Shown here: in pieces, positions 10,370 through 59,544 of the stretch
Numbering within the stretch: the first letter of the stretch is position 1
How the letters are laid out: every line of letters starts with the position of its first letter
DNA from: an uncultured Lachnospiraceae bacterium
Lineage (GTDB): Bacteria; Bacillota; Clostridia; Lachnospirales; Lachnospiraceae
Reading direction: 5' to 3'
DNA: 64,000 nt
Assembly: GCA_947173945.1 (NCBI GenBank)
Contig: CAMWGV010000007.1
Location: forward strand, 1-64,000
The notes under the pieces: model-generated
What the model saw: the letters and a program-made list of their open reading frames with translations, nothing else
Told to the model about the DNA's origin: nothing
The model's database searches: none
Program-made: the position numbers and the translations under genes

Positions 10370-10554
10370 CAAGCAAAAATAATATACACAACTATGACGA
10401 TATCATCCATCTTCCCCATCATCAATCGAAAACCAGACCTCATATGTCCATATATGACCGTGCCGCCCAATTTTCTCCGTTTTCAGCACTTACAGGGTAT
10501 GATGATGTCCTAAAGGATGCCGCAAAGCAAAACGAAGAATATATGGACAACTAA
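10366..10554 (+). CDS. YolD-like protein, probably C-terminally truncated
   Basis: SIYDRAAQFSPFSALTGYDDVLKDAAK motif; overlaps the end of the Y-polymerase gene; stops 17 bp before a large palindrome. Confidence 0.65.
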   Translation: MTSKNNIHNYDDIIHLPHHQSKTRPHMSIYDRAAQFSPFSALTGYDDVLKDAAKQNEEYMDN

Positions 10555-10570
10555 AGGGGCTTCTCACTAA

Positions 10571-10925
10571 AATTTAAGTTGTATGGCTTACCCACCGCAG
10601 TCACATACTGCTATACACATAAAACACGCTTTCGCTCGTCTCCGACGTAACGGTACTAAGAGCTTGGATTTCAGTTGCATAGACGCATGCATGTAAAACC
10701 GTTTGAAGACGTCGGTACTTAAATTGCCGGTGTAAGATTCCTTGATATGGAAATATCTTAAACCGGCAATTTTTAGTACCGCTACGTCGGAGACGAGCGA
10801 AAGCGTGTTTTTATATGCATGCGTCTATGCAACTGAAATTCAAACTCAAGTACCGACGTCTTCAAACGGTTTTTTGTGTATAGCAGCATGTGACTGCGGT
10901 GGGCAAGCCATTCAACTCAAATCTT
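10571..10925. repeat. ~355 bp nested palindrome carrying two oppositely oriented copies of a fixed junction module (A..B' outer, B..A' inner)
   Basis: Outer arms 10571-10622/10871-10925; module A 10625-10659 with B' 10848-10872; middle arms 10661-10697/10809-10849; module B 10698-10720 with A' 10773-10808; apex hairpin 10721-10772. Confidence 0.88.
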
Positions 10926-10941
10926 AATGTGACTGCCCTTT

Positions 10942-26249: not shown

Positions 26250-26255
26250 TATAAT
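26250..26255 (+). promoter_or_regulatory. -10 box (TATAAT) upstream of structured leader and AAA ATPase
   Basis: TATAAT with weak TTTACG ~18 nt upstream; repeat leader begins 13 nt downstream. Confidence 0.5.
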
Positions 26256-26267
26256 GGATGCATCCGG

Positions 26268-26347
26268 TTGTGTCAAGTTTTCATAGATAACATGACATGC
26301 AGCATCAGCTCTTTGCTGAAAGCAAATTATAAATGAGCTGATGTTCA
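26268..26347 (+). ncRNA. Candidate structured cis-regulatory leader (copy 1)
   Basis: ~80 nt nearly the same as 32564-32643 (minus); CATCAGCTC/GAGCTGATG stem enclosing TTTGC-TGAAA-GCAAA hairpin and TTATAAAT bulge. Confidence 0.6.
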
Positions 26348-26365
26348 AAGGTAGGAGGTAAAAAT

Positions 26366-27781
26366 ATGAACACCAGTTTAAAAAAAGATATAGAAGATAG
26401 TTATATGTACGGAGAAATTATATCTCAACAGGGTTTTGGTCCTGAGGGAGACATAAGCATGACTGAAATGATTAAATTTGATTTAATGCAATTTCTTGCT
26501 TATCTTATTGATGATGAGAGCAGCACATTATCCTCTGAGATTACCCTTATACAAGAATATCTTAACCAATACATGACAAAGGATAAACTGATTGCTTTTA
26601 AATATGAGCGGACTGCCTCAAAATCATTTCCTACAAAAATTCCACGCTCATTCACATACCTTGCAAAGGCTGATTTATCGGGAAAATCCGCTTTTACCAC
26701 AAAGGGATATTCCAAATCCAGATTTCTGCTCAACGTATATAACCAACTCGGTCAGGAATTTATAGCCTGCGATAATGAATCAACCGATACGGAGCTTAAA
26801 AAGCTTACTGACTACTGCCTCAATATAGAAAAATTTTTACGGGAGCATAACCTGTATGAAGCAGGCAAACCAAAAGTATATGCAAATACACCCAATGCAA
26901 CATCAACCACCAATGCAACACTCGAGGCAATGAAAGGTACACTTAACAAAGAAGAACTTCCGGAGGAGGAGCTTAAGCTTGAAGACCTGCTCGAAGAGCT
27001 TAATAAGCTTACAGGTCTGGATGATGTAAAGAAAGAGATTAAGAGCCTTATTAATCTTCTCAAAGTAAAAAAGCTCAGGGAAGAACGCGGCATGAAACTT
27101 CCTGACATGTCACTTCACATGGTATTTTCCGGCAATCCGGGGACAGGAAAAACAACTGTTGCAAGACTTCTCGCAAAAATATACAAATGTCTGGGGGTTG
27201 CAAGAACAGGACAGCTTGTGGAAGTTGACCGTTCAAATCTTGTCGAAGGGTATATCGGCCAGACAGCAACTAAAACCAGAGCGGTTGTGGAAACTGCACT
27301 CGGAGGCATCCTTTTTATAGACGAAGCCTACACACTTACAGCAGGTAAGGACGGTAAGGACTTCGGACAGGAGGCTGTAGATACGCTTCTCAAGCTTATG
27401 GAAGATAACAGAAATGACCTCATTGTAATCGTAGCAGGATATACAAAGCTCATGGAAGAATTTGTTGAATCCAATCCCGGGCTTAAATCCCGTTTTAACA
27501 AATATATATTTTTTGAAGATTATACAGGTGACCAGCTCTTTGACATTTTCATGTCTATGTGTGATAAGCAGGACTATATTCCAAACGATGCCGGACAGAA
27601 ATATGTAAAAGAATATCTGGCAGCACGGGCTGTTTCCCACGATGAAAACTTTGCCAATGCACGTGAGGTACGCAACTACATAGAACGTTCCATAGCAAGA
27701 CAGGCATCACGTGTGGTAGAAATTGAAAACATATCGGACAAACAGCTTCGGACACTTACCAAATCGGATTTAGAAGAATAA
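26366..27781 (+). CDS. AAA ATPase, CbxX/CfxQ/SpoVK-like
   Basis: HMVFSGNPGTGKTTVARLLAKIYK Walker A; GGILFIDEAYTL Walker B; SD TAGGAGG. Confidence 0.88.
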   Translation: MNTSLKKDIEDSYMYGEIISQQGFGPEGDISMTEMIKFDLMQFLAYLIDDESSTLSSEITLIQEYLNQYMTKDKLIAFKYERTASKSFPTKIPRSFTYLAKADLSGKSAFTTKGYSKSRFLLNVYNQLGQEFIACDNESTDTELKKLTDYCLNIEKFLREHNLYEAGKPKVYANTPNATSTTNATLEAMKGTLNKEELPEEELKLEDLLEELNKLTGLDDVKKEIKSLINLLKVKKLREERGMKLPDMSLHMVFSGNPGTGKTTVARLLAKIYKCLGVARTGQLVEVDRSNLVEGYIGQTATKTRAVVETALGGILFIDEAYTLTAGKDGKDFGQEAVDTLLKLMEDNRNDLIVIVAGYTKLMEEFVESNPGLKSRFNKYIFFEDYTGDQLFDIFMSMCDKQDYIPNDAGQKYVKEYLAARAVSHDENFANAREVRNYIERSIARQASRVVEIENISDKQLRTLTKSDLEE

Positions 27782-31147: not shown

Positions 31148-32539
31148 TTATTTCAAAATATCTGCTATATCATAAAAGCCTGTCTGCTTTGTGATTATTA
31201 CAACCCGGTCTCCACCCTTTATGACATCGCTGCCTCGTGGAATAATTACTTTACCATTTCTGCTAAGACATGCTAATAAAAGCTCCTCTTTAAGTGGAAG
31301 GTCCATAATCTGTCTTCCAACAACAGGAGAACTGTCCTCAACCAAAAACTCCAGTGCTTCCGCCCGATTGTCGAATATATTGTAAAGGGTTTCTATGTTA
31401 CTGCTACCTATGGAATTTTTCATAGCCCTGACATAGCCCAGAATATTTTCTGACGTCATATATCTAGGATAAATAACACTTCCCATATCCAGATTTTCAA
31501 TTACATCAGTAAAGGTTGTTCTGTTTATTTTTGTAATAACCTTTGTATTGGATATCCGCTTTGCAAACAGTGTGAGAAGTATATTTTCTTCATCAATACC
31601 GGTAAGTGGTACAAAGGCTTCTGTCTTCATAATGCCTTCCTCTTTCAGAAGCTCCACATCACCACCATCACCATATATGACAAGTGCTTTGGGAAGAAGA
31701 ACTGACAGCTCCTCACATCTTTTCGGATTTGATTCTATTATCTTTACATCTATATTCATGTCAGTAAGCTGTTTTGCAAGATAATACGAAGTTTTACCAC
31801 CACCGATTATCATACAGTTCCTTACCTGATGTGTCTCGACACCAATCTGCTTAAAAAACATCTGGGTATTTTTCGGCGTAGCAATAAACGAAACTACATC
31901 CTTTTCTTCAAGTGTATAATTTCCATCCGGTATAACAAGGTTTTCTCCCCGTTCAACACCACAAATCAGTATATCACTTTTGAAATCTTTATTTATATTT
32001 GCTATTTTACGGTCATGCAAAATGCTGTTTTCCGGAATTCTGAATTTCACAAGCTCTGCATGGCCTTTTGCAAACGAGTTAATATCCAAAGCTGTAGGGA
32101 GACGCAGTAATCTTGCCATTTCTTTTGCAATCTCAAGCTCCGGATTGATAATAAGAGATATACCAAGCTGATCACGCAGATAGCTTAATTCCTCACTGTA
32201 ATCCGGATTTCTCACCCTTGCAACAGCAACACACCTGCTGACCTTTTTTGCAATTGTACAACACAAAAGATTCAACTCATCTGACTCAGTCACCGCAATA
32301 ATTAAATGTGCTTTATCAATGCCAGCTTCAAGCTGCACCTTGTAGCTGGAGCCATTCCCCGTTATACCCATGACGTCATATGTGTTTGTAACCTTCTGTA
32401 CGACCTCCGCATTCTGGTCTATTATAGTTATATCGTGGTTTGCCTGCCTCAGCTTTTCCACAAGCGTCACTCCGACCTTGCCACATCCAACTATTATAAT
32501 GTTAAATCCCTGACTTCTCTTATCAAACGGATTTTTCAT
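31148..32539 (-). CDS. trkA: Trk potassium transport regulator TrkA
   Basis: NIIIVGCGKVGVTLVEKL and second Rossmann NCMIIGGGKTSYYLAKQL; SD AAGGAGAG before MKNPFDKRSQ (ORF-track start lies within the leader stem). Confidence 0.92.
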   Translation of the reverse strand: MKNPFDKRSQGFNIIIVGCGKVGVTLVEKLRQANHDITIIDQNAEVVQKVTNTYDVMGITGNGSSYKVQLEAGIDKAHLIIAVTESDELNLLCCTIAKKVSRCVAVARVRNPDYSEELSYLRDQLGISLIINPELEIAKEMARLLRLPTALDINSFAKGHAELVKFRIPENSILHDRKIANINKDFKSDILICGVERGENLVIPDGNYTLEEKDVVSFIATPKNTQMFFKQIGVETHQVRNCMIIGGGKTSYYLAKQLTDMNIDVKIIESNPKRCEELSVLLPKALVIYGDGGDVELLKEEGIMKTEAFVPLTGIDEENILLTLFAKRISNTKVITKINRTTFTDVIENLDMGSVIYPRYMTSENILGYVRAMKNSIGSSNIETLYNIFDNRAEALEFLVEDSSPVVGRQIMDLPLKEELLLACLSRNGKVIIPRGSDVIKGGDRVVIITKQTGFYDIADILK

Positions 32540-32563
32540 AATATGTACTCTCTCCTTCATTAT

Positions 32564-32643
32564 GAACATCAGCCCATTTATAATTTACTTTCAGCAAAGA
32601 GCTGATGCTACATGTCAGATTTTCATAGAAAACTTGACACATC
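32564..32643 (-). ncRNA. Candidate structured cis-regulatory leader (copy 2, upstream of trkA)
   Basis: Minus strand TGTGTCAAGTTTTCTATGAAAATCTGACATGTAGCATCAGCTCTTTGCTGAAAGTAAATTATAAATGGGCTGATGTTC; TATTAT -10-like box at 32654-32659 just upstream. Confidence 0.6.
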
Positions 32644-32725
32644 CTTTAAAACCATAATACCTTATCTTATCAACCTATATTACTCCAAAATATATCATTT
32701 TTCAACACAAAGTAATGTTACAATT

Positions 32726-33685: not shown

Positions 33686-33713
33686 GGCTGTTGCACTAAG
33701 AATATTATATCGT
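33686..33713. repeat. Half copy of GGCTGTTGCACTAAGAATATT repeat
   Basis: GGCTGTTGCACTAAGAATATTATATC, near-identical to left arm at 49584-49610. Confidence 0.7.
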
Positions 33714-49407: not shown

Positions 49408-49583
49408 TTCTCTCCTCTTTCCGCAGGTTTTCCTGCAATTATGTTCTATATAATGACATGCCATTTATAAATTTTGCCATGTCAATTTATATACGTTTTA
49501 AATGTTTCACTTTACACCGCTACGGTTTAACGCGTTAAAGCAAGGTGTGCATAGTTCCCTCTTGTTGTAACTGTATATCACAA

Positions 49584-49741
49584 GGCTGTTGCACTAAGAA
49601 TATTTATATCATAATATAAAAAAATCGTTTGAAGACGTCGGTACTTAGGTGACGTACTTTGGCACCTTAGTACCGTTACGTCGGAGACGAGCGAAAGCGT
49701 ATTTTCGTTATTATGATATAAATATTCTTAATGATAACAGT
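49584..49741. repeat. Composite palindrome: GGCTGTTGCACTAAGAATATTTATATCATAATA arms with junction module B/A' at the apex
   Basis: Arms AAGAATATTTATATCATAATA / TATTATGATATAAATATTCTT (21 bp perfect); core CGTTTGAAGACGTCGGTACTTAGGTG...CACCTTAGTACCGTTACGTCGGAGACGAGCGAAAGCG at 49626-49699. Confidence 0.88.
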
Positions 49742-59480: not shown

Positions 59481-59544
59481 GATGCGGTATCGCACTAACA
59501 ATATTTACATCTTATCCCAATATTCTTAGTACGACAACCTCATC
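59481..59544. repeat. Palindromic repeat related to the 49.6 kb arms, without inserted core module
   Basis: GATGcGGTaTCGCACTAAcAATATT ... AATATTCTTAGTACGACAACCTCATC. Confidence 0.75.

Follow-up and report, generated by a model that had tools for sequence, protein, structure and literature searches.

A small structured repeat of Lachnospiraceae, probably dispersing as a non-autonomous element, lies sense-oriented about 20 nt before start codons

The window (the whole stretch of 64,000 nucleotides that was analysed, from an uncultured Lachnospiraceae bacterium) contains two 82-nt sequences that align as an inverted pair with 88% identity. One precedes the gene of a CbxX/SpoVK-like AAA ATPase (hereafter cbxX), the other lies between nadA and trkA, and each is in the sense orientation, just upstream of its own gene (Table 1). 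This agrees with the original prediction, which described about 80 nt conserved between the two leaders in the same gene-relative orientation. The fold described at that time has a predicted energy of -27.1 kcal/mol (z -3.5), which none of 200 shuffled sequences equals, and the differences between the two copies do preserve pairing.

Table 1. Features of the two repeat-bearing leaders, in coordinates of the window.
Feature	Position	Strand	Basis or remark
TATAAT -10 box of cbxX	26250..26255	+	
Repeat copy 1, leader of cbxX	26266..26347	+	CM R2, 89.3 bits
Copy 1, hairpin 1, near-perfect palindrome TGTGTCAAGTTTTC...GATAACATGACATG	26269..26299	+	helix 1 of the covariation count
Copy 1, GYAG linker (here GCAG), immediately 5' of hairpin 2	26299..26302	+	
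Copy 1, hairpin 2	26303..26343	+	outer stem CATCAGCTC/GAGCTGATG; helices 2 and 3 of the covariation count
Inner hairpin TTTGCTGAAAGCAAA within copy 1 hairpin 2	26312-26326	+	
Unpaired 3'-side bulge within copy 1 hairpin 2	about 26327-26333	+	
Shine-Dalgarno AGGAGG of cbxX	26353..26358	+	sequence
CbxX/SpoVK-like AAA ATPase gene, downstream of copy 1	26366..27781	+	Pfam AAA, AAA_lid_6
trkA gene	31148..32539	-	Pfam TrkA_N, TrkA_C
Repeat copy 2, between nadA and trkA	32563..32644	-	CM R2, 89.7 bits
Copy 2, hairpin 1	32641-32611	-	
Copy 2, GTAG	32611-32608	-	
Copy 2, hairpin 2	32607-32567	-	

The longest open reading frame of trkA starts at 32569, at the ATG of GATGTTC, that is to say inside the repeat. 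Judging from the orthologues, the gene probably starts at 32539 instead, and the case suggests that genes may be extended into the repeat when they are annotated automatically. A -10-like box had also been noted before both copies; it is TATAAT before the cbxX copy and a weaker TATTAT before the trkA copy. Sister genomes that lack an intact copy have the TATAAT as well, which indicates that this box is part of the gene rather than of the repeat. Across the family, 73 of 101 copies lie within 200 nt after a co-directional gene, 32 of them within 30 nt of its stop codon. The repeat is therefore often intercistronic, and a promoter box is neither part of it nor a general feature of its surroundings.

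About 16 more full or partial copies are present in the same genome (G000): a first genome search returned about 13 copies that are nearly full and several that are partial, the covariance model R2 about 18 in all. With the same model, 9 of the 37 species of the genus carry the repeat (18–37 copies in seven of them, 3 in each of the two others), and the remaining 28 do not. Five genomes reached from named contigs contain 24–149 copies each (at least 149 in G330, 32–42 in G331, G333 and G334). At least 114 stretches came out of the scan of named genomes, and almost all of them bear titles such as Lachnospiraceae or Agathobacter; an order-wide sample of 295 genomes gave matches in three more genomes, of the same family as the source. 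Eubacterium sp. MSJ-21, a host that is in culture, has at least one copy (L256). This is a repeat family whose copy number in some gut and rumen bacteria ranges from tens to about 150 per genome, and its expansion is lineage-specific. We found no description of this hairpin repeat family in open-access papers, and as far as that literature goes it is previously undescribed. The original prediction that it is new to Rfam and distinct from ydaO is borne out: no Rfam 15 family scores above the gathering threshold in the window or in the diverged relatives, and the best matches below threshold are those of chance. We found no phage, viral contig or plasmid carrying the element.

The order of the parts is constant: a GYAG linker joins hairpin 1 to hairpin 2, which contains an inner hairpin and a bulge on its 3' side, and then come GTTC, the Shine-Dalgarno sequence and AUG. 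GYAG stands 5' of hairpin 2 in 159 of 170 copies (GTAG in 87, GCAG in 72). The short form measures about 82 nt, and in long forms of 110–210 nt additional hairpins are nested between hairpin 1 and the 3' half; at one pair of orthologous sites, a short form (L035) stands opposite a long one (L072). Diverged copies in other genera keep this architecture, including the GTAG/GCAG-like linker between the two hairpins, the 3'-side bulge of hairpin 2 and the Shine-Dalgarno sequence and ATG behind it, but have another sequence. The unpaired TTATAAAT, reported as identical in the two leaders, is not invariant in the family, where TTGGA, TTTGC and TTAGG variants occur.

Covariation across homologues, which the original prediction presupposed, is strong. 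In 42 distinct copies, 96.9% of the cells of the 30-pair structure are paired, and double changes are seen in 13 pairs (49 cells), a number that none of 500 shuffles reaches; in controls where the structure was slid along the alignment, only 26–44% of the cells are paired. Helix 1, which is that of hairpin 1, has 98.1% of its cells paired and five pairs with double changes, and the outer stem of hairpin 2 shows flips between G-C and C-G at columns 43–74 and 45–72. In 118 copies, the sense strand has 224 G-U cells against 14 A-C cells, an excess that comes mostly from conserved wobble pairs (29 against 14 once the pairs dominated by G.U are left out), and thus points to an RNA of the sense strand. 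The covariation is of the RNA type, and a covarying secondary structure on the sense strand is what is expected of a cis-regulatory RNA.

The original prediction went further, and saw in this structure a cis-regulatory RNA common to cbxX and trkA, with a link to K+ or c-di-AMP. The ydaO riboswitch, which responds to c-di-AMP, is indeed a leader RNA that sometimes precedes K+ transport genes, and a structured, conserved leader before trkA and cbxX would suit a metabolite or ion riboswitch. The leader RNA is real, but it is not specific to these two genes: the covariance-model search of Lachnospiraceae found further copies, and found them before unrelated genes, which encode an AAA ATPase, TrkA, a SpoIVB peptidase, a DUF2520 protein, ABC-2 permeases, TsaD and GNAT proteins, with no consistent functional class. 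Furthermore, the trkA and cbxX sites are not conserved in sister species, there is no long conserved aptamer core (the unpaired stretches are short and variable), and the family differs from ydaO, which it does not match in Rfam, in size, structure and target genes. We consider a riboswitch of cbxX and trkA as barely credible, and the link to K+ or c-di-AMP is unsupported for an interspersed repeat that proliferates within genomes and whose sites turn over. This is a reminder that two genes may share a covarying leader RNA without its being a riboswitch.

What the copies do have in common is their position. Counting only the last copy of each array (n = 153), 128 copies end 15–29 nt before an ATG in the sense orientation that is preceded by a Shine-Dalgarno sequence, and none is in such a register on the other strand; among random non-coding positions, 3.0% fall in the same 15–29 nt register. 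The median distance to the start codon is 20 nt (quartiles 18–21), and the same spacing, to short genes, is seen for many of the copies that fail the first register test. The region from the Shine-Dalgarno sequence to the AUG is predicted to be more open with the real element (0.589) than with a shuffled one (0.486), and this is so for 83 of 101 copies (p = 6e-13). This distance of about 20 nt before the start codon is where the 30S footprint usually has its 5' edge. Copies scattered without regard to gene starts had been named in advance as the sign of a MITE; the placement is strictly tied to gene starts, whereas the family is multi-copy and dispersed, so that the data show features of both a MITE and a regulatory leader.

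Regarding dispersal, copies are more similar within genomes (identity 0.889) than between genomes (0.791), a difference of 0.098 where shuffles never exceed 0.035, and G036 and G076 contain identical copies at different sites. Head-to-tail tandem arrays of two or three units, with a period of 83–88, are common in G330. The individual sites turn over quickly. Of the seven genomes with a trkA site, only G000 has an intact copy; GCTGATGTTCA alone is left in G021, and fragments or scars in G028, G034, G001, G014 and G036. The cbxX site holds a decayed 3' half in G028 and nothing in four other carriers. Some sites are nevertheless kept across species (L011/L083, L010/L108, L035/L072 and L018/L056), and the retention of these four locus pairs is as expected of a useful element. 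Taken together, turnover between sisters, scars and shared sites imply that copies arise, last for a while and then decay in place, mostly leaving their 3' end.

These observations bear on the possibility of a true regulon, in which a protein or an sRNA would bind a cis-regulatory RNA that controls the translation of dozens of genes, the position being selected and the spread secondary. The strict sense orientation, the 20-nt register, a distance that is no more variable to the ATG (sd 2.9) than to the Shine-Dalgarno sequence (sd 3.2), the compensatory changes across lineages and the sites common to different species are all in its favor. Yet a regulon does not account well for target genes that are unrelated to each other, for a trkA copy that is intact in one genome out of seven, for a cbxX copy that is not conserved, nor for the 28 species of the genus that have the target genes and no repeat. 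We hold it to be unlikely.

The definition of MITEs that we followed (PMC3049150) includes terminal inverted repeats, target-site duplication and multi-copy dispersal, and it is the last of these that the family exhibits. Its ends, as read from the alignment (TTGTGTCAAG... and ...GATGTTC), are not inverted repeats. The 97 non-tandem copies have 12 flanking repeats of at least 4 nt, against 12.3 in shuffles, i.e. no target-site duplication; the excess seen with all copies (28 against 10.3) is due to the tandem arrays. The direction of change could not be assigned for any insertion event: a clean empty site (L041 compared to L086), which is the best candidate, may also be explained by a deletion between tandem 3' ends. 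We also considered isolated copies of hairpin 1 as the ends of an autonomous element in G330, but none of the 44 matches stands alone, as judged by eye against the full copies listed. No autonomous partner was found. In the seven copy-rich genomes of the genus, Y1 (PF01797) and Y2 transposases are absent, and the RVT_1 reverse transcriptase was not found in six, the seventh having one weak match; outside this set, Y1 is present in G330 and G332 and absent from G331, G333 and G334. Since these enzyme searches gave no mobiliser, a target duplication is missing and the empty site is ambiguous, we claim dispersal and no mechanism of transposition.

Two known kinds of mobile repeat have to be weighed here. 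As in GTAG REPs, which are accompanied by Y1 transposases (PMC3733652), a GYAG tetranucleotide stands immediately before an imperfect hairpin, although exact GTAG is found in only about half of the copies, and like REP, BIME and REPIN sequences (PMC3733652, PMC3116915) the family has a lineage-specific sequence and a high copy number. The lack of terminal inverted repeats and of target duplication would also fit a palindromic DNA element moved by a Y1 transposase (RAYT or IS200). However, the copy-rich genomes of the genus contain no Y1 transposase (nor do G331, G333 and G334), and the conserved G.U pairs favor RNA. Moreover, REPs lie mostly near the 3' ends of genes, in head-to-head pairs (PMC3733652), whereas this family consists of two hairpins in a fixed order, placed 5' of genes in the sense orientation only and at a set distance from the start codon, with arrays that run head to tail. 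A REP-type element is improbable for these reasons. A SINE-like element, spread by reverse transcription of its RNA, would explain the structure of the sense strand and the many 5'-truncated copies that share one 3' end. Still, the truncations can be deletions, some of them at GTCA microhomology, 3'-truncated copies occur too, no target duplication is seen and a reverse transcriptase is lacking in all but perhaps one of the copy-rich genomes of the genus, which makes this origin improbable as well.

The pneumococcal BOX, RUP and SPRITE repeats (PMC3049150) are also small, structured, interspersed in high copy number, modular in length, co-transcribed with genes and probably non-autonomous. Unlike them, this family has stems that covary across genera, and it lies only in the sense orientation, about 20 nt before start codons, whereas BOX, RUP and SPRITE are over-represented between convergent genes. 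In Beggiatoaceae, many sets of TAACTGA direct repeats are found in the forward orientation just upstream of the start codons of unrelated genes, and a translational role has been proposed for them (PMC4679880); those, however, consist of short heptamers whose position overlaps that of the Shine-Dalgarno sequence, which the hairpins described here leave intact. The bacterial small repeats compared here prefer convergent regions or gene 3' ends, while this family keeps a near-fixed distance to the start codon.

We argue that the family is probably a small structured repeat of Lachnospiraceae that disperses as a non-autonomous element, in one orientation and about 20 nt upstream of start codons. 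Each copy would be transcribed within an mRNA leader and would fold into two self-contained hairpins, whose base would end where a 30S subunit that is bound at the start codon is expected to have its 5' edge. The Shine-Dalgarno site would then be left open, which may be why the element is tolerated there and how its fold would let the host gene stay translated. The repeat probably has a modest effect on translation or mRNA stability. The register would result from insertion that is targeted, from selection that removes copies at other positions, or from both. We tentatively put forward the possibility of a mobile element that directs its new copies to translation starts, about 20 nt upstream of the AUG and in the sense orientation only, with a fold that keeps the start site open; targeting could then involve recognition of the ribosome-binding region or a step at the mRNA level. 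We know of no bacterial element that targets translation start sites in this way. In bacteria that are common in gut and rumen, the repeat stands before essential genes as well as ordinary ones. It offers a natural experiment on what translation start sites tolerate, is a candidate part with which expression could be set, and lends itself to the study of targeted dispersal with no Y1, Y2 or reverse transcriptase enzyme in sight.

Last, we note several variants and neighboring repeats. Copies without hairpin 1 that begin with TTGTGTCAG occur at several unrelated sites (L064, L088, L097, L115 and L022); this 5' end is the expected product of a deletion between two GTCA tetranucleotides. In L014 and L025 (G000) and L108 (G021), the loop of the copy contains a separate insert, GGAAACTGCGTTTCC..CACGTTCCAAAAGGAAC..GCTAAG, as if a second module were nested there. 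The 82-nt element is also contained in a composite repeat of about 300–385 bp, 85–92% identical, in G333 (L330, L391, L394, L398 and L403) and G331 (L409), mostly with no long open reading frame behind it. A large nested inverted repeat lies at 10553-10941 of the window (its 73-nt arms are 85% complementary and separated by 243 nt, and it has further inverted repeats inside), and has blocks of 39–40 nt (TTAGTACCG..ACGTCGGAGACGAGCGAAAGCG) in common with 49592-49733. A second repeat, GGCTGTTGCACTAAGAATATT / AATATTCTTAGTACGACAACC, whose inverted arms resemble those of a classical MITE, has copies or ends at 49583-49733, 33686-33706 and 59519-59540, and a similar pair, TCGCACTAAG / TTGCACTAAG, is found upstream of cbxX in G036 and G034 (L138 and L141).
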